Notes under the pieces: generated by a model
The model's database searches: none
Seen by the model: the letters and a program-made list of their open reading frames with translations, nothing else
What the model was told of the DNA's origin: nothing
Source: Anaerolineales bacterium
GTDB lineage: Bacteria; Chloroflexota; Anaerolineae; Anaerolineales; Villigracilaceae
Assembly (NCBI GenBank): GCA_025056175.1
Contig: JANWWK010000018.1
Location: 1 to 37,942 of the forward strand
Length of the DNA stretch: 37,942 nucleotides
Direction: 5' to 3'
Program-made: the position numbers and the translations under genes
Shown: positions 16,918 through 32,426 of the stretch, one piece after another
How positions within the stretch are numbered: position 1 is the first letter of the stretch
Layout: each line of letters starts with the position of its first letter

Positions 16918-17793
16918 ATGGATGCGAGAGCGTTACTTCTCGAAGCAATAGACAACCGCTGGCAAACCTACCGCGAGCAAATCAAAACCTGCCGTCGAGA
17001 ATTTTCCGAAGAAGCCGTTCACGACTTGCGGGTGGCCGCACGGCGATTGCTGGCACTGGTGGATTTGATTCGCGCCATCGCGCCGCATCCACGTTTACAA
17101 AAAATTCGCAAAGCGCTCAAAGGACAGCTAGACGAATTCGACGGATTGCGTGATACTCAGGTGATGCTCGCCGAAGTTTCCGAGAACCTGGAAACCCTGC
17201 CAGAACTCAAACCCATCCGGCAAATTCTACAGAAGCGGGAACGCCGTTTTTTGCGCGAGGCCGAAGAAATCATCGAAGACCTGAAGCCCGCTGGTATTGC
17301 CCGGCGTTTGGAAAAGACTCGCGCCATGATAGCACAAGTACAAGCCGGCCCGGCTTTCGATGCGCTGGTATTGCAGGCAGTAGATGAAGCCTACGGTACC
17401 GTCCTGCAGCGCTATGCGTGGATTCATGCCTCTCAGCCCGCAACCATCCACCGCACACGCATTGCGTTCAAACGGTTTCGCTACATGGTAGAAATCATTC
17501 ACCCGCTCTTGCCAGATTTCCCACGCACCAATTTCAAGCGCATGCACGATTATCAAACCGCGATGGGGGAAATTCAAGATGCCGAAGTTTTCCTTTTTAC
17601 GCTGGAGGAAATGACCGAAATTGAAGGCATCGAAGTCATTCGCCGCCATTACGAGCAGCGTCACCAGCAATTGATTGCAGTTTTTATGGAAGAAAAAAGC
17701 CAGGTAGAAACCTTCTGGCGGCCTGCGCCCGAACAACCGTTCCCCTGGCAAGTGATACAACCAGCTGAAACAAAAGCGCTGTCCCCTTCCTGA
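16918..17793 (+). CDS. CHAD-domain protein
   Basis: 291 residues, almost all helical and rich in conserved basic residues: VHDLRVAARRLLALVDLI near the N-terminus, KIRKALKGQLDEFDGLRDTQV, and in the second half IHRTRIAFKRFRYMVEIIHPLL and QTAMGEIQDAEVF. These are the two repeats of a CHAD domain, a helical fold that binds polyphosphate and locates to polyphosphate granules. It stands 58 bases upstream of polyphosphate kinase in the same direction, which supports a polyphosphate-related role. No CYTH (triphosphatase) domain is fused. The ATG at 16918 has AGGA eight bases upstream. Confidence 0.92.
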   Translation: MDARALLLEAIDNRWQTYREQIKTCRREFSEEAVHDLRVAARRLLALVDLIRAIAPHPRLQKIRKALKGQLDEFDGLRDTQVMLAEVSENLETLPELKPIRQILQKRERRFLREAEEIIEDLKPAGIARRLEKTRAMIAQVQAGPAFDALVLQAVDEAYGTVLQRYAWIHASQPATIHRTRIAFKRFRYMVEIIHPLLPDFPRTNFKRMHDYQTAMGEIQDAEVFLFTLEEMTEIEGIEVIRRHYEQRHQQLIAVFMEEKSQVETFWRPAPEQPFPWQVIQPAETKALSPS

Positions 17794-17851
17794 CCGGTTT
17801 TTCTTTATCCGCTCCACCTGCTACCTATCCGCTTCTCCGCATTGAGACGTT

Positions 17852-19969
17852 ATGACGCTCCCGCCCAACGACCCCATCCTGACGCTTTCAGACCCTAAAC
17901 TCTACATCAACCGTGAACTGGGCATGCTGGAATTTCAGCGCCGCGTGTTAGAAGAAGCCCAAGATGAAAACAACCCCCTGCTGGAGCGGGTCAAATTCCT
18001 TGCCATTTTCGGCTCGAACATGGATGAATTCTTCATGGTGCGCGTATCGGGCATTCGCAAACAGGTGGAAGCGCACATTCCAGACATTTCGATAGACGGA
18101 CGCACCCCGCGCGATGTACTGGCAGCCATCCGTAAAACATCGCATGAACTTTATGAAGAAGCCCTGCACTGCTGGAACAAAAAATTACTCCCCAAACTGG
18201 ATAAAGCCGGCATTCACATACTTGACTATACCAGATTGAACCCTGCCCAGCGTGAACGCGCTGATACCTACTTCCGTGAAGTGGTTTTTCCCGTTCTCAC
18301 ACCGCTTGCGCTCGACCCGGGTCATCCGTTTCCGCACATTTCTAACCTGAGCCTGAACCTGGCGGTGGTCATCCGCGATACCAAAGGCAACGAAAAATTT
18401 GCTCGTCTCAAGGTGCCCGATACCCTGCCGCGTCTCGTACCGGTCAAACGCTCCTCCGGCGGAGAGCGCAAAGACGGCACGATACCGCGCCAGCACTACT
18501 TTGTCTGGCTGGAACAGGTAATTGCCGCCAACCTGACGCTTCTATTTCCAGGCATGCAGGTTGTTTCAGCGCATCCATTCCGCATTGTGCGCGATGCGGA
18601 TGTGGAGATTCAGGAACTCGAAGCCGATGACCTGCTCGAAACCATGCAGGCCAGCATTCGGCGGCGTAAATTCGGCTCGGTGGTGCAGGTTGCCATCTAC
18701 GAGAGCATGCCCTCCAGCGTGCGCGATTTACTCATCGAAAACCTGGAGGTGCGCCCAACCGACCTGTACATACAGAGCAGTCCATTGGGACTGGTGAGCC
18801 TGTGGCAATTGTATAACACGCTGGAATTGCATGAGTTGAAATACCCGCCGTACAAACCCTTCGTCATTCCGGCCTTTCGTCAACCGGGTGCCCCTGCCGA
18901 TATTTTCGATGCCATCCGGCAGGAGAATCTCCTGCTCCATCACCCTTACGATTCGTTTACACCAGTGGTGGATTTTTTGAACGCCGCGGCGCGCGACCCG
19001 CAAGTACTGGCCATCAAGCAGACTCTCTATCGGGTGGGGCAAAATTCGCCGGTGGTGGAAGCCCTGCTGGAAGCGTCTGAACGTGGCAAACAGGTGGCAG
19101 TGCTGGTGGAGTTAAAGGCGCGCTTCGACGAAGAGAGCAATATCGGCTGGGCGCGGCGGCTGGAGCAAGTAGGCGTGCATGTCGTCTACGGCCTGGTCGG
19201 GCTGAAAACGCACAGCAAAATTGCGATGGTTGTCCGGCGCGAAGGGGAGGGCATCCGCCGCTATTTGCACCTGGCAACCGGCAATTACAACCCATCCACT
19301 GCGCGCATCTACGAAGATTTAGGGTTGTTTACCTGCGATGAAGAGATGGGCGCGGATGCCACCGACCTGTTCAACTACCTGACCGGCTACTCCACCAAAC
19401 AAGATTACAAAAAACTGCTCGTGGCACCGGTCAACCTGCGCCGTCGACTCGAAGCGCTCATCCGCCGCGAAATTGCCCACGCACGCGCTGGCAAGAAAGC
19501 ACACCTCATTTTCAAAGTGAATGCCATTGTAGACCAGCCCATCATTCAACTGCTTTATGAAGCCTCGCAGAGCGGAGTGCAGGTAGATTTGCTGGTACGC
19601 GGCATTTGCTGCTTGCGTCCGGGGCTCAAGGGCGTGAGCGAGAACATTCGCGTCATCAGCATCGTGGGACGCTATCTTGAACACAGCCGGATTTATTATT
19701 TCTACAACGATGGTGCAGAAGAAATTTATTTAGGAAGTGCTGACCTCATGCCCCGCAACCTCGACCACCGCGTGGAAGTGGTGTTCCCCCTCGAAAAACC
19801 CGGTCATGTTCATTACATGAAGAGCCAGGTTCTGGATATTTACCTGAAAGACACCCTGCGCGCCCGCCTGATGCGGCCCGATGGCACCTATGTCCGCGCC
19901 AAAGCCGATAACAATGCCCTGGATGTGCAGGCGTGGTTAATGAGCCACCGGGTGGAGAAAAAAATGTGA
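17852..19969 (+). CDS. ppk1: polyphosphate kinase 1
   Basis: Reversibly polymerises the gamma-phosphate of ATP into polyphosphate. The 705-residue protein has the N-terminal helical domain (YINRELGMLEFQRRVLEEA, SNMDEFFMVRVSGI), the head domain and two phospholipase-D-like catalytic domains. The phosphorylated histidine is H454 (GLKTHSKIAMV) and the second histidine H611 (RYLEHSRIYYF); both are displaced by 19 from E. coli H435/H592, so the core is intact. RYLHLATGNYNP and SADLMPRNLDHRVEV are also present. No exopolyphosphatase gene is adjacent; the partner is the CHAD gene upstream. It converges on the small membrane protein gene with 22 bases between. Confidence 0.97.
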   Translation: MTLPPNDPILTLSDPKLYINRELGMLEFQRRVLEEAQDENNPLLERVKFLAIFGSNMDEFFMVRVSGIRKQVEAHIPDISIDGRTPRDVLAAIRKTSHELYEEALHCWNKKLLPKLDKAGIHILDYTRLNPAQRERADTYFREVVFPVLTPLALDPGHPFPHISNLSLNLAVVIRDTKGNEKFARLKVPDTLPRLVPVKRSSGGERKDGTIPRQHYFVWLEQVIAANLTLLFPGMQVVSAHPFRIVRDADVEIQELEADDLLETMQASIRRRKFGSVVQVAIYESMPSSVRDLLIENLEVRPTDLYIQSSPLGLVSLWQLYNTLELHELKYPPYKPFVIPAFRQPGAPADIFDAIRQENLLLHHPYDSFTPVVDFLNAAARDPQVLAIKQTLYRVGQNSPVVEALLEASERGKQVAVLVELKARFDEESNIGWARRLEQVGVHVVYGLVGLKTHSKIAMVVRREGEGIRRYLHLATGNYNPSTARIYEDLGLFTCDEEMGADATDLFNYLTGYSTKQDYKKLLVAPVNLRRRLEALIRREIAHARAGKKAHLIFKVNAIVDQPIIQLLYEASQSGVQVDLLVRGICCLRPGLKGVSENIRVISIVGRYLEHSRIYYFYNDGAEEIYLGSADLMPRNLDHRVEVVFPLEKPGHVHYMKSQVLDIYLKDTLRARLMRPDGTYVRAKADNNALDVQAWLMSHRVEKKM

Positions 19970-21993: not shown

Positions 21994-24900
21994 ATGAGCT
22001 TTATGGGGAAATTCTTTGCCGGTATTCATTTTTTGATTGCGCTGACCGTTGGGCTGACCTTGCCCCTGGCGCAAGCGGCGCCGGTTCGCGCCGATGAACT
22101 CGCCGCGCCTGCCGCCGATACCACCGGTTTACCAGCCCTGCCACGCACGCTGTGGAGTGATACCGCCGAACCGGCCAATCCGAACTTTCAAGACGTGGGC
22201 GGCCCGATTCAGTTAGGCGTGCGCTTCACCTCTACCGATAGCGGTTATGTGACCGGTATCCGCTTCTTCAAAGGTTCGCAGAACACCGGAACGCACACCG
22301 GGCAGTTATACGACCTGGCGGGCAACCTGCTGGCTTCGGCAGTTTTCACCAACGAAACCGCCGCCGGCTGGCAGACGGTTTACTTTGCCGCGCCGGTCTT
22401 CATCACCGCCGGGCAGACGTATGTTGCCTCTTACCACACCGCATCCGGTTTTTACGCCCGAACGCCCAACTATTTCACTTCAGCGCGGGTCAACTTGCCG
22501 CTCACGGCCCCTGCCGATGATGGCGGCGTGACGAACATCAACGGCGTGTATGCCTACTCCACCACGCCCACCTATCCCGACCAGGCCTACGAGCAGAGCA
22601 ACTACTGGGTGGATGTGGTCTTTGAGACGCCCGAAATGCCCGCGCGCGGCACGCTGGGCGTTTATGTCGGCGCGCGCGTCACCTATCGCTTTCCAACCGC
22701 CATGAACCCGGCCACCATCAACGCGGCAACTTTTCTCGTGCGTAACCCGGCTAACGAGATTCTCCCCGCCACCGTCTCTTACGATTCTGCCGCCCGGATG
22801 GCGATTCTCACTCCCGCCAGCCAGTTCAACAACCAGACCACTTACAGCGTGACGATTCTCGGCGGGGCGGGCGGCGTGCGCGATGCGCTCGGCAACCCTC
22901 TGCCTGCCGACATCACCTGGAACTTCACCACCGAGGCCGCTTACCCCGATTCCGGCCCCGGCGGGCCGATTCTGGTCATCGGCAGCACTTACGATGGCTT
23001 CAGCCGCTACTATCCCGAAATTCTGCGCGCTGAGGGCTTGAATGCCTTCCGCTTCACCGACCTGAGCCGCGTCAGCGCCGCCACCCTGAACAATTACGAC
23101 GTGGTGATACTGGCGCATACCACCCTCTCTGATACGCAGGCCGCCATGTTCACGAACTGGGTGACGAACGGCGGCAACCTGATTGCCATGCGCCCCGACC
23201 CGCGCCTGGCATCTTTGCTCGGCATTGCTCCTGCCGGAAGCCCCCCGCTCAGCGAGGGCTACATCCTGGTCAACGGAAGCGGGCCCGGCGCGGGAATCGT
23301 CAACCAGACAATTCAATATCACGGTGCGGCAGACCGTTATCTGTTGAGCGGCGCGGCCAATCTCGCCACGCTTTATGCCGATGCCTTCACCGCCACCGCC
23401 AGCCCGGCGGTCACGCTGGCAAGCGTCGGCGCGAACGGCGGACAGGCCGCTATGTTCGCCTATGACCTGGCGCGCTCGGTCGTCCTCACCCGCCAGGGCA
23501 ACCCACGCTGGTCGGGCGACGACCGCGATGGCATCATCCCCACCCGCTCGGCAGACCTGTTCTACGGCAACAAAGCCGGTGACCCGCAGCCCGATTGGGT
23601 CAACCTGGATAAAGTCGCCATCCCACAGGCCGATGAGCAGCAGCGTTTGCTGGCGAACCTGATTCTCAGCATGAATCTCGACAAAAAACCATTGCCGCGC
23701 TTCTGGTATTTCCCGCGCGATGAAAAAGCGGTGGTGGTGATGACCTCGGATGACCACGCCGATAACGTGGTCTATAACAGCCTGTACGATGACCGCCTGG
23801 ACCAGTTGAACGCCTACAGTCCGCCCGGTTGTTCGGTGGACGATTGGGAATGCGTGCGCCAGAGCATTTATCTGGTGGTGGGTTTTGTCACCAACCCCGC
23901 CGAAAACGCCAAAATTCAGGCTTACGCCGCGCAAGGACACGAGTTTGGCGTTCACATCAGCACCAACTGCGCCGATTACACCAACGCCGCGCTCGATGCG
24001 TTTTTCACCAGCGGGATGGCCTGGTTTGGGAGCAATTTCTCCTTCCTGCCCGCGCCCCGCACCGAGCGCACGCATTGCGTGGCCTGGAGCAACTACGTCG
24101 AACATATCAAAGTCCGCCGTTCGCACGGCATTCGGCTCGACACCAACTTTTACTACTATCCCGCCTCGTGGGTCAATAACCGTCCTGGCATGTTCACCGG
24201 TTCGGGCCTGATGATGAAGTTCGCCGACCTGGATGGCAGCCTGATTGACGTGTATCAGGCCGTGACGCACATGACTGACGAAGCCGGGCAGACTTACCCC
24301 TACACGATTGACACCCTGCTCGATAACGCGCTTGGCCCACTCGGCTACTACGGGGCCTTCGTCACCAACATTCACTCCGATTCGGGCGCGTTTTCTGATG
24401 CGAACATAGACATCATCGAATCGTCCCTGGCGCGCGGCGTGCCAATCATCTCTGCCCAGCAGATGCTCACCTGGCTGGATGGCCGCAACGGGTCGAGTTT
24501 CAGCGCCTTCGACTGGCAGAACGATATTCTCTCCTTCCGTGTCAATGCGGCGGCGGGGGCGCGCGGCCTGCGGGGGATGCTGCCCGTTCAGGGGCCAAAT
24601 CATCCCCTCACCGCCATCACCCGCAACGGCGTGCAGATTGCCTATCGGACGGAGTTCATCAAAGGCGTGGAATATGCCTTCTTCGATGCCCCCAGCGGCG
24701 ATTACCAGGCCTTCTACGCGCCCGATACCACCCCGCCGGTCATCACCAATGTCCAGGCCACCATCAACGGCGACGGCACGGTGACGATTACCTGGGATAC
24801 CGACGAATTCGCCAATTCGCGCGTGGATTACGGTACAAATCCGCTGGCCTTGACGAATAACGCGCAGGACTCAGCCCTGACCCTGGCGCATTCCATCACC

Positions 24901-27900
24901 CTCACCGGCCTGACGCCCAACACCACCTATCATTACCGCGTCACATCCGCCGATGCCTGGGGCAACAGCGCCACCGAGCCGCCGGAACCCAACCTGCCGC
25001 TCTCGTTCACCACGCCCTACAACCCCTTCACTGATACCACTGTGATTGACTTCCAGAGCGGAACGCTGGCCGCCTGCTATGTGGGCGCGGCAGACAACGG
25101 CGAACTCCTGCTTGGCCCCACGCTGGGGGAGGAATTTTCCGGCACGGGTCTGCCTGCCGGGTGGACGCCCTACGCCTGGGCCGGTCATGCCCCGGTCGTG
25201 GCAACCGGACGCCTGACGCTGGATGACGCCGCCGTCTATTATGCCAGCACAGCCTTCGGGCCGGGTCACTCGCTGGAATTTACTGCCACCTTTGGCGCGG
25301 ACGACTATCAGCTGGCCGGGTTCGTGGGCAACGGGGCGTGGAACGAGTATTGGGCTGCCTTTGGCACGGTTGCCAGCACCAATCAGGTCTACATCACCAT
25401 CAGCGGCGGTACGAACATCCCAATTGGGGCGTTGGTGGGCGCGCCGCACCGCTACCGCATCCAGCGCGTGGGCAATGTCTTCACGTTCTACGTGGATGAT
25501 GTTCAGGTTGGTTCGCCTGCCGGGTACACTCCGCCCGGCGTGGGAAACGTCCGAATCGGCTTCATCGATGACGAATATGATGGCGACCCCTTGCGCGTTG
25601 ACTGGCTGCGGGTTGCGCCCTACGCCACCCCGTGCGTCTTTACCTCGCGCGTATTCGACGCCGGTCTGCCTTCTGATTGGCTCCTGCTCACCTGGCTTGG
25701 AACGGCTCCCGCCGGAACAACTGCCGCGTTCGAGACCCGCACTGGCAATACCCCCACGCCTGATGCCTCCTGGTCAGCCTGGGAAGCCGTCAGCGGGACG
25801 GATATGGTCAGCCCGGATGGACGCTACGCCCAATATCGCGCCACGCTGACCACCAGCAGCCCTTTCTTCATCACGCCAATTGTCGAATCGGTCAGCCTGA
25901 CCTATGCGGCCATCAACCAGCCGCCAACCGTCAGCATTGACCAGTTCATCACCCAGACCGACCCGACCAACGCCTCGCCCATCCGCTTTACGGTGGTCTT
26001 CAGTGAACCGGTCAGCGGATTCGATGGCAGTGACGTGCTTCTCTCTGGCACAGCAGGCGCGACCACAGTGGTTGTGACCGGCAGTGGGGCAACCTACATC
26101 GTGGAAGTGAGCGGCATGGGAGCGGATGGCACGGTGATTGCCACAATTCCCGCTAACGCCGCTCTGGATAGCGGCGGGTTGGGTAATCTGGCCAGCACCA
26201 GCACGGATAACACCGTTACCTACGATACCACTGCTCCAACGGTCACGGTCGAACAGGCCGCCGGTCAGTCCGACCCGACCAACGCCACGCCAATTCTCTT
26301 TACGGTCACGTTCAGCGAGCCGGTCAGCGGATTCACGGCCTCCGATGTCGTCCTTTCCGGCACGGCGGGCGCGACGACGGTCAACGTGACCGGTTTGGGG
26401 CCGGTTTATACCCTCGAAGTGAGCGGAATGGCAACGGATGGCACGGTCATTGCCGCTATTCCGGCGAATGCCGCGCAGGATGCCGCCGGGAATGGCAACG
26501 CCGCCAGCACCAGCGTAGATAATCAAGTAACCTTTGATGCTCTGGGACCGACCGTGACGGTCGAACAGGCTGCCGCTCAGCCCGACCCAACCAACGCCGG
26601 GCCGATTCTGTTCACGGTCACGTTCAGCGAGCCGGTCAGCGGATTCACGGCCTCCGATGTCGTTCTATCCGGCACGGCGGGCGCGACCACGGTCGTTGTC
26701 ACCGGTTCAGGGGCCAATTACACCCTGGCGGTGAGCGGCATGGCAGCCGATGGCACGGTCAGCGCGTCCATTCCGTTTGGGGCGGCGCAGGACGGAAGCG
26801 GTAATGACAGCCTGGCAAGCACCAGCACGGATAACACCGTCACCTACGATACCACTCCGCCGGTCGTGACCATCGGCGCGCCTGGTTTGGCAGTCACCAA
26901 CAGCGGCCCGGTCACGTTCCCGGTCACGGTCAGCGGCGCAAGCACAGTGAACCTGACGGCGGGCGATGTGACGCTCAACGCCACCGGGACGGCCAATGGC
27001 GCGATTACGGTCACAAATGGAGCCACCGCCACGCCCACCATCACGGTCAGCGGAATCAGCGGGAATGGGACGCTGGGAATCTCCATCGCGGCGGGAATCG
27101 CCCTGGATGCAGCAGGCAATTCCAGCGCGGCAGCCGGGCCATCTTCCACCTTCGTTGTGGATAACACCGCCCCCACCGTCGTCTCTATCACCCGCGCCGA
27201 CCCCAGCCCCACCAACGCCGCCTCGGTGAATTTCAATGTGACCTTTAGCGAGCCGGTCGGCGGACTTGCGGCGGCCAACTTCAGCCTGCCTGCTCTGGGA
27301 GTTACGGGCGCTTCGATTACCGCTATCAGCGGTGGCGGCGCGAATTACACTGTAACCGTGAACACCGGCGCGGGCGATGGCGTGCTTGGCCTGAATCTGG
27401 TGAACAGCACCGGGTTGGCCGACCCCGCCGGGAACGCAGTGAGCGGTCTGCCGTTCGCGGGCGAAATGTATGTGATTGAAAAACTCAACCCGCAGGTTGT
27501 CTCGATTACCCGCGTCGACCCGAATCCGACCACCGCCACGAGCGTCCGCTTCGCCATCACCTTCTCCAAAGCGGTGACGGGCGTTTCAGACAGCAGCTTC
27601 TCGCTGGCAGCGACGGGCGTGAGCGGCGCGTCTCTGGTCAGCGTAACTGGCAGCGGCGCTTCGTACACCGCCGTCGTCAACGTTGGAACAGGCGAAGGCA
27701 CGCTTGGCCTGAACCTGACGGATGCAAGCGGCATTTCCGATGCGGTGGGCAACCCGCTGACCGGCGTTCCGTTTACCGGTGAGTTCTACACCATTGACCT
27801 GACCCCGCCAACCCTGACTGCGAACGGAGTCAGCAGCGTTCCGGCAACGGGTGACGGCGCAATTACCGAATTGGAAATCGTGACGGTCAACATCACGCAA

Positions 27901-28833
27901 CTTTTGGTACGATTCAGCGAAGACGTGAACGACCCGCCCGGCGATAGCGGCGCAAACGACGTGACCAACCCCGCCAACTATCTGCTGGTGCAGGATAACG
28001 GCGACGGCATTCAGACCGATTCTTGCGCTGTGGGCGTAAACGGCGGCGACCTGCCCGCCCTGATTGACGCAGTGACTTATGACAACACGACCTTTACCGC
28101 CACGCTCAACCTGAACGGCGGCGGCGGACTGGCAAACGGCGTCTATCGCCTGCTGGTGTGCGGCACCACCTCCATCACTGACCTGGCAGGCAACCGCCTG
28201 GCAGGTGATGGGACGAACGCCCAAACCGATTTTTCCCGCAACTTCATTATGGCGGCGCGCGGCGTGGGCGGCGGAGAGGAAACTCCCACGCCCATCCGGC
28301 TGAATGACGTGCTTATCCCGGCCACCGGCTTTGAGCCGGGCATTCTCACCGACCTGCCAGCGCAGCCTGCCAGTAAAATGTATACGGCCTACTCCGGGCT
28401 GATTCTCGAAATTCCGCGCCTGGGCGTGAAGGTGGAAATTGTGGGCGTGCCGTTCACCGAACAAGGCTGGGATGTCACCTGGCTCTACAAGCAGGCTGGT
28501 TATCTCCACGGCTCAGCGTTCCCCACCACAGCGGGCAATTCCGTCATCACTGCCCATGTGTGGGATGCCCTCAACCGCCCCGGCCCGTTCTACGGCCTGA
28601 AAGACCTGGTCTATGGCGATAAAATCATCGTCCGCGCCTGGGGTAAGGTCTTCACCTACGAAGTGCAGAGCAACGCCCGCATTTCGCCGCGCAGTATCTA
28701 CCAGGTCATGAAGCGCGAAACGCTCTCCTGGCTGACGCTCGTCACCTGCGAGACCTTTGACGCCGACAAAGGCAATTATCTCTACCGCCGCATGGTGCGC
28801 GCCGTTCTGGTCAGCGTGAGCGAGGAAAAATAA
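21994..28833 (+). CDS. giant exported multidomain protein with C-terminal sortase domain
   Basis: 2279 residues; AGGGAGG (21982-21988) precedes the ATG by five bases. Approximate map: signal peptide 1-32; DUF4082-like beta domain 45-212; SbsA/Big_5-type Ig domain 212-316; Rossmann/ThuA-like domain 320-570; NodB-like deacetylase domain 572-910 with TSDDHAD (D586-D587-H588) and HEFGVH (H649/H654); fibronectin-III/phosphatase-N-like domain 912-1008; lectin-like beta sandwich 1040-1212; three Ig repeats of exactly 104 residues (1311-1622); one further Ig; two Ig repeats with a 106-residue period (1728-1935); another Ig-like domain to 2085; a linker with LIPATGF (2107-2113); and a sortase domain 2129-2279 with H2188 (TAHVWD), C2252 (LVTCE) and R2266. 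No membrane anchor follows the sortase. Predicted extracellular; substrates unknown. Confidence 0.9.
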   Translation: MSFMGKFFAGIHFLIALTVGLTLPLAQAAPVRADELAAPAADTTGLPALPRTLWSDTAEPANPNFQDVGGPIQLGVRFTSTDSGYVTGIRFFKGSQNTGTHTGQLYDLAGNLLASAVFTNETAAGWQTVYFAAPVFITAGQTYVASYHTASGFYARTPNYFTSARVNLPLTAPADDGGVTNINGVYAYSTTPTYPDQAYEQSNYWVDVVFETPEMPARGTLGVYVGARVTYRFPTAMNPATINAATFLVRNPANEILPATVSYDSAARMAILTPASQFNNQTTYSVTILGGAGGVRDALGNPLPADITWNFTTEAAYPDSGPGGPILVIGSTYDGFSRYYPEILRAEGLNAFRFTDLSRVSAATLNNYDVVILAHTTLSDTQAAMFTNWVTNGGNLIAMRPDPRLASLLGIAPAGSPPLSEGYILVNGSGPGAGIVNQTIQYHGAADRYLLSGAANLATLYADAFTATASPAVTLASVGANGGQAAMFAYDLARSVVLTRQGNPRWSGDDRDGIIPTRSADLFYGNKAGDPQPDWVNLDKVAIPQADEQQRLLANLILSMNLDKKPLPRFWYFPRDEKAVVVMTSDDHADNVVYNSLYDDRLDQLNAYSPPGCSVDDWECVRQSIYLVVGFVTNPAENAKIQAYAAQGHEFGVHISTNCADYTNAALDAFFTSGMAWFGSNFSFLPAPRTERTHCVAWSNYVEHIKVRRSHGIRLDTNFYYYPASWVNNRPGMFTGSGLMMKFADLDGSLIDVYQAVTHMTDEAGQTYPYTIDTLLDNALGPLGYYGAFVTNIHSDSGAFSDANIDIIESSLARGVPIISAQQMLTWLDGRNGSSFSAFDWQNDILSFRVNAAAGARGLRGMLPVQGPNHPLTAITRNGVQIAYRTEFIKGVEYAFFDAPSGDYQAFYAPDTTPPVITNVQATINGDGTVTITWDTDEFANSRVDYGTNPLALTNNAQDSALTLAHSITLTGLTPNTTYHYRVTSADAWGNSATEPPEPNLPLSFTTPYNPFTDTTVIDFQSGTLAACYVGAADNGELLLGPTLGEEFSGTGLPAGWTPYAWAGHAPVVATGRLTLDDAAVYYASTAFGPGHSLEFTATFGADDYQLAGFVGNGAWNEYWAAFGTVASTNQVYITISGGTNIPIGALVGAPHRYRIQRVGNVFTFYVDDVQVGSPAGYTPPGVGNVRIGFIDDEYDGDPLRVDWLRVAPYATPCVFTSRVFDAGLPSDWLLLTWLGTAPAGTTAAFETRTGNTPTPDASWSAWEAVSGTDMVSPDGRYAQYRATLTTSSPFFITPIVESVSLTYAAINQPPTVSIDQFITQTDPTNASPIRFTVVFSEPVSGFDGSDVLLSGTAGATTVVVTGSGATYIVEVSGMGADGTVIATIPANAALDSGGLGNLASTSTDNTVTYDTTAPTVTVEQAAGQSDPTNATPILFTVTFSEPVSGFTASDVVLSGTAGATTVNVTGLGPVYTLEVSGMATDGTVIAAIPANAAQDAAGNGNAASTSVDNQVTFDALGPTVTVEQAAAQPDPTNAGPILFTVTFSEPVSGFTASDVVLSGTAGATTVVVTGSGANYTLAVSGMAADGTVSASIPFGAAQDGSGNDSLASTSTDNTVTYDTTPPVVTIGAPGLAVTNSGPVTFPVTVSGASTVNLTAGDVTLNATGTANGAITVTNGATATPTITVSGISGNGTLGISIAAGIALDAAGNSSAAAGPSSTFVVDNTAPTVVSITRADPSPTNAASVNFNVTFSEPVGGLAAANFSLPALGVTGASITAISGGGANYTVTVNTGAGDGVLGLNLVNSTGLADPAGNAVSGLPFAGEMYVIEKLNPQVVSITRVDPNPTTATSVRFAITFSKAVTGVSDSSFSLAATGVSGASLVSVTGSGASYTAVVNVGTGEGTLGLNLTDASGISDAVGNPLTGVPFTGEFYTIDLTPPTLTANGVSSVPATGDGAITELEIVTVNITQLLVRFSEDVNDPPGDSGANDVTNPANYLLVQDNGDGIQTDSCAVGVNGGDLPALIDAVTYDNTTFTATLNLNGGGGLANGVYRLLVCGTTSITDLAGNRLAGDGTNAQTDFSRNFIMAARGVGGGEETPTPIRLNDVLIPATGFEPGILTDLPAQPASKMYTAYSGLILEIPRLGVKVEIVGVPFTEQGWDVTWLYKQAGYLHGSAFPTTAGNSVITAHVWDALNRPGPFYGLKDLVYGDKIIVRAWGKVFTYEVQSNARISPRSIYQVMKRETLSWLTLVTCETFDADKGNYLYRRMVRAVLVSVSEEK
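25924..26859 (+). repeat. three in-frame 312-bp Ig-domain repeats
   Basis: Units start at 25924, 26236 and 26548, each 312 bp (104 codons), with no insertions or deletions. Units 2 and 3 are almost identical in DNA over about 80 bases (26302-26383 and 26614-26695), far above what protein conservation needs, which points to recent duplication or gene conversion. Unit 1 is more diverged. Confidence 0.8.
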
Positions 28834-28853: not shown

Positions 28854-29792
28854 ATGTCCTCCTATTTCGTCCACCCGCAAGGAATTGTCGAACCCGGCGC
28901 TGAAATCGGCGAGGGGACGCGCATCTGGGCTTTTGCACACGTTTTGCCCGGCGCGAAAATTGGCCGCGATTGTAATCTGTGCGATGGCGTGTTCGTCGAG
29001 AACGATGTCATCGTGGGCGACCGCGTGACCCTGAAGAGCGGCGTGCAGCTGTGGGATGGCATTCGGCTGGAAGATGATGTCTTCGTTGGGCCGAACGCCA
29101 CCTTCACCAACGACCGGTTCCCGCGCAGCAAACACTACCCGGAGAAGTTCCTGCAAACCCGCGTGTGCCGCGGCGCTTCGATTGGCGCAAATGCCACCAT
29201 TCTGCCCGGTCTCACCATTGGCGCGCACGCGATGGTGGGAGCGGGAGCGGTCGTCACCCGCGACGTGCCGCCGTATGCAATTGTCGCTGGCAACCCGGCC
29301 CGCATTCGCGGGTATGTCAACACCGCCGATACGCGCGCCATCGCGCCCCAAACCAGCGAGCAGGGCATTCCACAGTTGCGCGTGCAGGGCGCGCGGCTCA
29401 TCCAGCTGCCCAAAATTGTGGATTTGCGCGGCAGCCTGACCTTTGGCGAATATGACAAGCACCTGCCCTTTCCCCCCAGACGCTATTTCGTCATCTTCGA
29501 TGTCCCCTCGCTCGAAGTGCGGGGCGAACATGCCCACCGCGAACAGCACCAATTCCTGGTCTGCCTGAAAGGCTCATGTTCGGTGGTGCTGGATGATACC
29601 GAAACCCGCGAAGAAGTGGTTCTCGATAAGCCCAACCTGGGGCTGTACCTGCCGCCGATGGTGTGGGGCATTCAGTACAAATACACCGCCGACGCCGTTC
29701 TGCTCGTACTGGCTTCGGATGTCTATGACGCGGCGGATTACATCCGCGATTACGATACGTTCGTTCAAGAAAAGAAGGCGCGCCATGCGTGA
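28854..29792 (+). CDS. fused dTDP-sugar N-acetyltransferase / 3,4-ketoisomerase
   Basis: 312 residues in two parts. Residues 1-155 are a left-handed beta-helix acetyltransferase (many hexapeptide turns, WlbB/QdtC/FdtC motif TNDRFPRSK, end GNPARIRG). Residues about 175-312 are a WxcM/FdtA/QdtA-type cupin ([60 protein letters not shown]). The cupin moves the keto group of dTDP-4-keto-6-deoxyglucose from C4 to C3; after transamination the other domain acetylates the new amine. The domain order is that of bifunctional FdtD of Shewanella denitrificans. Sequence alone cannot say whether the product is Fuc3NAc or Qui3NAc. It starts 20 bases after the giant gene; RmlA/RmlB are not in the window. Confidence 0.88.
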
Positions 29793-30933
29793 GATTCCCT
29801 TTCTGGACATGAAATCGCCCTATCTGGAGTTGCAGGCCGAACTCGATTCCGCCTGGGCGCGGGTGATGCGCTCCGGCTGGTACATTTTGGGCGAGGAAGT
29901 GCAGGCTTTTGAGCAGGAATTTGCCCGTTATGTGGGCGCGGAGTATTGCGTGGGCGTGGGGAATGGGTTAGAAGCGCTTCATCTCATCCTGCGGGCGTAT
30001 GACATTGGCCCCGGCGATGAAGTCATCGTCCCCTCCAACACCTACATCGCCACCTGGCTGGCCGTCTCTTACGCGGGCGCAACGCTCGTGCCGGTCGAAC
30101 CGGTGGAGCGGACATACAACCTCGACCCGGAACGCATCGAAGCCGCGCTCACCCCGCGCACCAAAGCGATTCTGGTTGTCCACCTCTACGGTCAAACCGC
30201 TGAGATGGACGCCATCTGCGCCGTTGCCCGCAAGCACGGCCTGAAGGTCATCGAAGACGCGGCGCAGGCGCATGGCGCGCGCTACTGGGGAAAAATGGCC
30301 GGAAATTTGGGCGACGCTGCCGGGTGGAGCTTCTACCCCGGCAAAAATCTCGGCGCATTGGGCGATGGCGGCGCTGTCACCACCAACGACCCGGCCCTTG
30401 CGGAGCGCATCCGCACGTTGCGAAATTACGGCTCCAAAGTGAAGTATTACAACCTGGAAAAAGGCTTCAACAGCCGCCTGGACGAGTTGCAGGCCGCCCT
30501 GCTGCGCGTAAAACTGCCGCATTTGGACGAATGGAACGCCCGCCGCGCCCGCATTGCCGCGTTTTACCTGGAATCCCTGCGCGAGACCGGTCTCCTCCTG
30601 CCGCATGTGCCAGAGGGCATGACCCCCTGCTGGCACCTGTTCGTCGTCCGCGCGCCCCAGCGTGATGCGCTCCAGGCGCATCTCAAAGCGCAGGGCATCG
30701 GGACGATGATTCACTACCCTGTGCCGCCCCACTTGCAGGCAGCCTACCGCGAACTCGGTCTGCCGGCGGGGAGTTTTCCTGTCAGCGAAGCCATCCACCG
30801 CGAAGTATTGAGCCTGCCGATGGGTCCACACTTGAGCATGGAAGACGCCGCGCGGGTGGTGGAAGCGGTCAAAGCGTTTTTCACCCCTCTCCCCGCGCGC
30901 GAAGGAGTACGAGAAAAGGAATACCAGCGGTGA
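29785..30933 (+). CDS. dTDP-3-amino-3,6-dideoxyhexose transaminase (FdtB/QdtB type)
   Basis: PLP-dependent DegT/DnrJ/EryC1/StrS aminotransferase that adds the amine at C3 of the keto sugar made by the fused enzyme. The 382-residue protein has [13 protein letters not shown] at the start, [15 protein letters not shown], the PLP-contacting [14 protein letters not shown], the Schiff-base lysine in [15 protein letters not shown], and [18 protein letters not shown]. The ATG at 29785 lies in ATGCGTGA, overlapping the previous gene by 8 bases, so the two are translationally coupled. The frame is open further upstream, but that part is antisense-like and does not match the family. FdtB and QdtB cannot be told apart by eye. 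Confidence 0.92.
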
Positions 30934-32426
30934 CCACCCTCCACAACCGCGTCATCAAATCCACCACCATCATCGGCGGCTCTTCGGCGGTGAATATTCT
31001 GTTCCGCATTTTGCAGGCCAAAGCCGCTGCCCTGTTGATTGGCCCGGCCGGGGTCGGGCTGATGGGTGTGTACAATTCCATCCTGGCGCTGGCAAGCATG
31101 GCCGCCGGCATGGGGCTGGAGACCAGCGGCGTGCGTCAGATTGCCGAAGCGGCTGGCAGTGGCGAGGAAGAGCGCGTTTCCCGCACCATTTGCGCCTTTC
31201 GGCGGCTGGCGCTGGGGTTGGGCGTGCTGGGCGCGCTCATCTTGCTCGCCTTTAGCCCGCTTATTGCCCATCTCACCTTTGGCGATGACGCACGCGCCCC
31301 GGCCATCGGCTTCCTCTCCCTGGCCCTGTTCTGCCTGGTGCTGGCGAGCGCCCAAAACACCCTGATTCGCGGCGTGCGGCGCATCGGCGACCTGGCCAAA
31401 ACCAGCATCTTCGGCATTGCGCTTGGCACGGTGTTGGGGCTGCCACTCTTATACTGGTTCGGGTTACAGGGCATCCCTTTCTACCTGATTTTCACCGCCG
31501 CCCTGACTCTGCTCGTCTCCTGGTGGTATGCCCGCCGCATCCCGCTCGCGCCGGTCACGCTCACCTGGCGGCAGACCTGGCAGGAAGCGCGCGAACTGCT
31601 GAGTTTGGGCATCGCTTTCATGGCCTCCGGGCTGGTCACGCTGGCGGTGGGCTACCTGGTGCGCGTCCTGGTCTTGCGCCAGTTGGGATTGGAAGCCGCC
31701 GGGTTCTACGAGGCCGCCAGCGCGCTCTCGAATGTCTATATCGGCTTCATTTTGGGCGCCATGGGCGCCGATTACTTCCCCCACCTGGCCTCGCTTGCCA
31801 GAGATGACCCCGAAAGCAACCGCCTGATGAATGCCCAGGTCGAAGTCGGCCTGCTGGCCGCCGCGCCGGGCATCCTGCTCGTGCTGGCACTTGGCCCCTT
31901 CCTGCTCGAGCTGCTCTACTCGCGGGAATTCGCCGCCGCGTTCGAGATTTTGCGCTGGCAGGCGCTTGGCACCTTTTTGCGAATCTACTCCTGGCCGCTG
32001 GCTTACCTGATGCTGGCGCGCGGCAAAAAAACGCTCTACTTTTGGAACGAACTGCTCACCAACCTGCTCTACCTCGGCGCGCTGACCGGCCTGGTCAACC
32101 TGGTGGGGCTGCCGGGCATTGGCATCGCCTTTTTTCTGATGTACGTTTTCTACACCCTGGCCGTCACTCTGCTCGCCCGGCGTCTCTCTGGCTTTGGCTG
32201 GTCGGGGCAAAATCTGACCCAAACCGCCGTGCTCGCCCCGCTCGTCCTGCTGGCCTTTGGCCTGACCTATCTCCTCCCGCCGCTCTGGATGGCCGCCGCC
32301 GGCATCCTGCTCGCCTTGCTGACCGGCCTCTACGCCTTGCGCTGCCTCTACCGACTGTTTGGCCCAGACGTTTTTCAGGCTTACCTGCAACGCCTGCGCG
32401 CCCGCCTGGGATGGAAAACCCTATGA
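30930..32426 (+). CDS. Wzx-type polysaccharide flippase
   Basis: 498 residues with about 12-14 membrane helices, of the MOP/PST exporter family (O-antigen translocase, WzxE-like). The start [43 protein letters not shown] matches the conserved first helices of Wzx proteins. It should flip an undecaprenyl-pyrophosphate-linked oligosaccharide across the membrane. The GTG start at 30930 overlaps the aminotransferase stop (GTGA), and its own stop overlaps the next ATG (ATGA). The context with a 3-amino sugar pathway and a glycosyltransferase supports export of an oligosaccharide unit containing that sugar. No Wzy polymerase is in the window. Confidence 0.88.

Follow-up and report, generated by a model that had tools for sequence, protein, structure and literature searches.

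The window, a stretch of 37,942 nucleotides, carries on its forward strand an open reading frame for an exported protein of 2279 residues, in which a long passenger is followed by a C-terminal, putatively self-sorting module (Table 1). Judged by eye, the signal peptide is probably cleaved after AQA. An earlier note had placed a sorting-type motif, LIPATGF, at residues 2107–2113, ahead of the protein's own C-terminal sortase domain. One-by-one inspection of the residues confirmed this, as it did the catalytic His2188 and Cys2252. The catalytic arginine, given in that note as R2266, has to be moved by one position, the invariant residue being R2265 (column R167 of alignment A2). The note had also claimed that there is no membrane anchor, and this was borne out: beyond residue 40 no stretch of the protein reaches membrane level, the highest 19-residue hydrophobic mean being 1.32 as compared with 1.96 for the signal peptide. 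Look-alikes of the motif (EPVSGF) start at residues 1338, 1442 and 1546, inside Ig-like repeats of the passenger.

Table 1. Features of the gene for the 2279-residue protein, in window coordinates, and loci of the sister design discussed in the text.
Feature	Position	Strand	Basis
Gene for 2279-aa exported protein	21994..28833	+	ORF and Pfam
Signal peptide, residues 1-28	21994..22077	+	19-residue hydrophobic mean 1.96 at residue 7
Passenger: DUF4082, Ig-like (Big_5), Pur_ac_phosph_N/fn3-like and Big_12 repeats	22078..28311	+	Pfam
LIPATGF, residues 2107-2113	28312..28332	+	Residue check; PxTG there in 126/128 modules
Sorting motif IPATG, residues 2108-2112; predicted scissile bond T2111-G2112	within 28312..28332	+	
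Conserved linker, consensus about APGxxTxLPxQPAxKAY, motif to first beta strand	28333..28383	+	Alignment, conservation profile, model
Sortase domain PF04203, residues 2138-2273	28405..28812	+	Pfam E 1.9e-19; modelled fold Z 17.6
Catalytic His2188	28555..28557	+	Invariant in alignment A2, 75 sequences
Catalytic Cys2252 (TLVTC signature)	28747..28749	+	Invariant in A2
Catalytic Arg2265	28786..28788	+	Invariant in A2 (column R167)
Sister-design loci	L159/L231, L160, L169/L233, L170, L232, L237, L249, L252, L259, L261-L268, L272		

Downstream of the gene (28854–32426) lie genes for an FdtA/hexapeptide acyltransferase, a DegT aminotransferase and a polysaccharide biosynthesis (flippase-type) protein, a segment that resembles a locus for an amino-sugar polysaccharide of the cell surface. 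Such neighbours were considered as a hint to the acceptor and set aside: there was no recurring neighbour family in a sample consisting of the window gene's neighbour and 63 downstream frames picked from 156 listed, and the sampled neighbours of other modules were miscellaneous. The commonest families, among the 25 listed of 109, were MFS transporters with six and four members. Elsewhere in the window, positions 16918–19969 encode a CHAD-domain protein, followed by polyphosphate kinase.

The C-terminal domain is predicted to be a transpeptidase. The window protein scored 70.1 bits against Pfam PF04203, for which the curated cut-off is 26.6, and all 45 homologous proteins scanned matched the sortase family at E ≤ 1e-4. 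It lay below the NCBIfam cut-offs for individual sortase classes (class C, 39.4/160; class F, 35.0/166; SrtD, 31.2/140; class E, 30.7/160; class D, 29.0/165; class GN, 24.0/158.25) and, at 38.8 against 39.35, below that of the general sortase model TIGR01076. By sequence, its best match among solved structures is a class C sortase. In an alignment of 75 modules (A2), H90, C154 and R167 are invariant, as are L151 and T153, while T150 is nearly so, giving a TLxTC signature. The modelled fold of the window module matched 7cfj, 7f87 and 5cuw (VIA Z 17.6), and that of a second module, from Longilinea, matched 5cuw (Z 18.8). In favour of the earlier note, the catalytic Cys, His and Arg are thus invariant across the 75 modules, in a predicted fold that matches solved sortases.

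We subsequently consider the motif in homologous modules. Six-frame translation of the window and of loci L001–L141, searched with profile A1, gave 149 matches above 150 bits, 128 of them distinct. The zone 30–75 residues ahead of the Trp of WDxTWL was searched with a pattern in which P, T or S, and G were fixed. A PxTG-type motif was present in 126 of the 128 distinct modules, the two exceptions (L139 and L140) being short frames of 203 and 169 residues without a passenger. The invariance of P, T/S and G among the 126 merely restates this count, because the pattern demanded those residues. The motif began 48–52 residues ahead of the Trp in all 126, in agreement with the fixed spacing that had been predicted, and the residue after the motif G, which the pattern left free, was F in every one. 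The residue before the P was L in 91, I in 24, V in 4, M in 4, P in 2 and Y in 1, and the T/S position held T in 124 and S in 2. When the modules were aligned on the motif, the 30 upstream columns carried 0.40–0.91 bits, the motif columns 3.06, 4.32, 1.29, 4.20, 4.32 and 4.32 bits (P, T/S and G being required by the pattern), and several linker columns 3–4 bits. This abrupt onset of conservation at the motif, with a variable x (1.3 bits), is the profile of a putatively cleaved substrate. A chance motif was ruled out: from composition, about 0.0009 occurrences of [LIVMPY]Px[TS]GF would be expected in the 60 residues ahead of the Trp, and 126 of the 128 distinct modules have the motif in this position. 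A membrane anchor hidden after the sortase was also rejected: no module frame with its stop in view had a stretch after the motif with a 19-residue mean of at least 1.9. The anatomy of motif plus sortase module is solid.

Later searches yielded variants that break the consensus, LPSTGY (L238), APATGF (L256) and IPDTGY (L155); the divergent 82-bit modules of one genome (G097; L155 and L156) keep IPDTGY and IPQTGF. The PxTGF motif is doubled in tandem directly ahead of the module in L004, L038 and L068. The 203-residue frame of L139 (1501–1938) is a sortase core of the same family without motif or passenger; it is perhaps a decayed remnant, since G639, of the same genus, has a module with the motif (L229).

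The C-terminal 193 residues of the window protein matched 72 of 101 genomes (its own and relatives) at E ≤ 1e-6, a count that includes some ordinary sortases. Among the matches listed for the phylum (400 genomes) there were full-length modules, some fragments and ordinary sortases. The full-length modules scored mostly 200–279 bits, aligned from the motif and lay mostly in long open frames; the ordinary sortases scored about 105 bits or less, had mostly 180–430 residues and mostly aligned beyond the motif. Across the class (396 genomes), 35 matched at E ≤ 1e-30; the window's family accounts for 24 of them and the rest of the order for 4, while 7 lie outside the order. Of these seven, G639 carries the module with LPETGF and G564 carries it with LPKTGF, one (G359) holds the fragment L139, and four have ordinary-size sortases. 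All 79 named loci, from the best 80 of 480 confirmed stretches, belong to Chloroflexota, and they include named strains of Ornatilinea apprima, Longilinea arvoryzae and Leptolinea tardivitalis, each with the module.

Passengers were scanned in 45 of 53 closed stop-to-stop frames of named loci, the 45 being those with at least 300 residues, up to a limit on total size. The 45 proteins contained 76 Pfam families; among the 25 listed are SpaA, Cna_B, SdrD_B, Big, MBG, YDG, cadherin and beta-propellers. Some of these repeats are found elsewhere in proteins with an ordinary LPXTG tail at the C-terminus. Counted by eye on crude hydrophobicity, 45 of 57 closed frames have a stretch resembling a signal peptide close to the N-terminus. 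The module thus sits on many unrelated surface proteins rather than on a single odd one, and a motif placed before a sortase is a family-wide pattern.

A fused enzyme that served other proteins would lead one to expect bare signals, and separate sortases might act on the fused motif. The genome from which the window comes has three sortase domains, two in fused modules and one separate. The sole separate sortase (G000:C59:48716-49078; L003, L164) is one for which no ordinary LPXTG substrate was found. Among the rows listed, 57 of 61 genomes had an ordinary sortase of at least 99.9 bits, in open frames of 150–470 residues. In the same kind of count, a 29-residue profile of motif plus linker matched inside a module in 38 of the 61 (it missed the module of G004), and 20 of the 57 genomes with an ordinary sortase had no such match, among them G029, with module fragments at contig ends, and G069, with the sister design described below. 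In those 20 the separate sortase must therefore have other work. The profile gave 90 matches in the 61 genomes. All 80 at E ≤ 0.003 lay in a sortase module or within 60 bases of one, a tandem copy in G067 among them. The remaining 10 were weak (E 0.008–0.046) and five of them were read: one ends a 102-residue frame, and one (G082:C187) has no motif in a frame of more than 90 residues. Three of the ten look by eye like histidyl-tRNA synthetase. Bare signals with the module linker were thus not seen in the 61 genomes, the profile being one that would miss signals lacking the linker.

Linker-less signals were looked for in the window's own genome. TIGR01167, a model that also matched in 14 of 14 control genomes, gave 12 weak matches there, one of them just above the cut-off. 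Ten of these loci had no closed frame of at least 100 residues with a PxTG within 70 residues of the end and a hydrophobic stretch after it; the only motif in them sat at the very end of a frame, as its final five residues. When the genome was scanned with the 18-base pattern of [LIMF]PxTGF, restricted to F after the G, 19 places were found as compared with 6 for the reversed pattern. Nine were in shorter frames and ten in frames of at least 90 residues, two of which are the modules; in the other eight no hydrophobic stretch followed the motif (highest mean 0.77). Ordinary LPXTG substrates were accordingly rejected for this genome as far as the TIGR01167 loci and the [LIMF]PxTGF frames of at least 90 residues extend, neither of which contained an LPXTG tail.

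The position of the motif relative to the active site was assessed with two AlphaFold2 models. Model 1, of the window module with the 75-sequence alignment (motif at 10–15), had a mean pLDDT of 95.8, and of 96 over block 11–20, which holds most of the motif. Model 2, of the Longilinea module with 40 upstream residues and 47 sequences (motif at 41–46), had means of 53, 62, 55 and 56 over residues 1–40 and then 95 at 41–50. The motif register was read from the first aligned residues of each range, assuming no gap. The alignments of model 2 to class C structures start (model-target) at 40-48 (3rbk, 3tbe, 3rbi), 39-56 (2w1j), 37-54 (2wts) and 38-81 (4g1h), and that to SrtE1 (5cuw) at 40-168. In the available excerpts of PMC3166054 and PMC3493515, class C lids are formed by Asp49-Pro50-Tyr51, Asp58-Pro59-Trp60 and Asp84-Pro85-Phe86, and the lid is described as a pseudo-substrate whose Pro overlays the Pro of LPXTG (PMC3493515). 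Ala168-Ala170 is, in an excerpt of PMC5148588, a peptide modelled in the SrtE1 active site. If ungapped, motif Pro42 of model 2 would fall on lid Pro50, Pro59 and Pro85, and on the 5cuw active-site peptide, that is, the substrate position. In the same model the register of 4g1j is off by one (start 34-82, lid 90-92), and the alignments to 3re9 and to most class A and E structures begin only at the core. The register of model 1 is less exact: only 4g1h coincides, there is a shift of one residue for 2w1j, 2wts, 3rbk and 4g1j and of two for 3tbe and 3rbi, and the alignment to 5cuw begins only at residue 31, in the core. The lid mutant 3rbj aligns from 60-60 only in model 2, and provides no clean control because model 1 aligns it from residue 1. 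AlphaFold2 may be copying the class C lid arrangement. That the motif reaches the active site, a point raised in the earlier note, is supported though not settled by the alignment starts, which favour it in model 2 and do so less exactly in model 1; docking of the motif in substrate register is suggested by the modelling.

The same register bears on an alternative, in which the motif is a pseudo-substrate like the class C DP(W/F/Y), forming an auto-inhibitory lid, and the domain acts in trans to build surface-protein polymers. The alignment starts place the motif on the class C lid, the best solved match by sequence is of class C, such lids are pseudo-substrates in the excerpted description (PMC3493515), and some passengers carry the pilin-type domains SpaA and Cna_B. 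However, an LPxTG that keeps its scissile T/S-G in 126 of 128 modules, with x free to vary, resembles a substrate rather than DPW; moreover, action in trans needs no sortase per substrate, and no bare signals with the module linker were found. We regard the lid as unlikely. As modelled, the N-terminal segment of the module may follow the lid path of class C sortases, with its Pro near the lid/substrate Pro, but the module differs from them in having LPxTGF instead of DP(W/F/Y), no membrane helices and a giant passenger, and in the class C score of the window protein (39.4 against 160).

A sister design was found in f10 and f14, two further families of the order, in 18 proteins (427–2418 residues, some cut by the stretch fetched) from 14 genomes, these being long open frames chosen from match lists rather than a systematic survey. 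Here passenger, [LI]PxTG, two hydrophobic stretches, linker and C-terminal sortase follow one another in one chain. The best 19-residue means are 2.2–3.0 and the second best 1.7–2.5. A further sister-like protein (L273) has LACTG in the motif place. As in the module, a repeat passenger is followed by motif and sortase within a single chain, but these proteins differ from it in the two membrane-type stretches and in a gap of 136–206 residues between motif and sortase core. The arrangement looks like an in-frame fusion of an ordinary sorting signal, with its tail, to a membrane sortase, and it makes the combination of motif and enzyme within one protein a recurrent theme. L160 and L168 (G069 and G094) hold clusters of several separate membrane-anchored sortases; in L160 the cluster adjoins the fused giant gene.

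Since signal and sortase are joined in one module, each protein probably cuts and attaches itself, with no need to depend on a separate membrane enzyme. The last ~170 residues would then form a self-sorting cassette at the C-terminus, good for a single turnover and shuffled onto unrelated passengers, a proposal that we consider reasonably probable. Conservation and spacing of the motif carry the case; the lack of a membrane-level stretch after it, the failure to find bare signals with the module linker, the adhesin-type domains on unrelated passengers and the sister design also speak for it. The most economical reading of the anatomy would be cleavage in cis, a thioacyl passenger and transfer to an amine. 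The signal peptide would export the protein, and the C-terminal sortase would emerge and fold last, with its own IPATGF in the active-site cleft. Cys2252 would attack Thr2111-Gly2112; the passenger of ~2100 residues would lose its peptide link to the sortase and be held on it as a thioacyl ester. A surface amine, such as a peptidoglycan side chain, an amino sugar or another surface protein, would resolve the ester, so that the passenger would be fixed covalently via its C-terminal Thr and a sortase fragment of 168 residues freed. Cleavage, acyl-enzyme, acceptor and sortase release are the steps that we infer. Because it arrives attached to its sole substrate, the fused sortase would not need anchoring in the membrane. 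The cis substrate might alternatively undergo hydrolysis or pass from one molecule to another, and the separate ordinary sortase of 57 of the 61 genomes could take part.

With the same anatomy, a cut in cis could be resolved by water, in which case the module would be an autoprotease and its passenger would be shed to the medium; engineered sortase fusions do serve self-cleavage, to judge from the title of PMC2901362. We think this decidedly improbable, as passengers include repeats typical of wall-anchored adhesins and mere release needs just a stop codon. That the separate housekeeping sortase cuts the motif, leaving the C-terminal domain a recognition or folding part only, accords with the strong ordinary sortase of 57 of 61 genomes but is scarcely credible given the invariant triad of the fused domain and the other work of the separate enzyme in 20 of the 57.

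Known sortases are separate membrane enzymes that serve many substrates. The module shares with the LPXTG/SrtA type an LPxTG-type motif ending a repeat-rich exported passenger, and a TLxTC sortase with His, Cys and Arg. It differs in that the enzyme occupies, within the same polypeptide, the place of the C-terminal membrane anchor, with one enzyme per substrate, and, unlike in a classical LPXTG signal, the motif is not followed by a hydrophobic helix and a basic tail (no 19-residue mean of at least 1.9). We found no precedent for a natural LPxTG-sortase fusion in the open-access literature, subscription papers being mostly outside the search. The nearest precedent is that of engineered self-cleaving fusions. 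In BISOP, passenger, LPXTG and sortase are reportedly in one chain. By its title, BISOP is a self-cleavage purification method with sortase (PMC2901362); it is a man-made purification tag, whereas the Anaerolineae module is natural, conserved and present on many unrelated surface proteins. An excerpt of a 2006 review mentions one sortase-like protein in Chloroflexus, with no evidence of sortase action (PMC1586193).

On balance we lean slightly towards a natural 'auto-sortase', disposable and membrane-free, that would cut itself off, leave its passenger covalently anchored and offer a display route for large Anaerolineales adhesins, alongside the sister design with its membrane helices. The proposal is directly testable, because the module is present in named Longilinea, Ornatilinea and Leptolinea strains. 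If true, it would provide protein engineers with a natural self-cleaving ligation tag, and a single-turnover sortase supplied as one enzyme per substrate would amount to a new mode of bacterial surface assembly, suggesting how filamentous Chloroflexota display giant adhesins.
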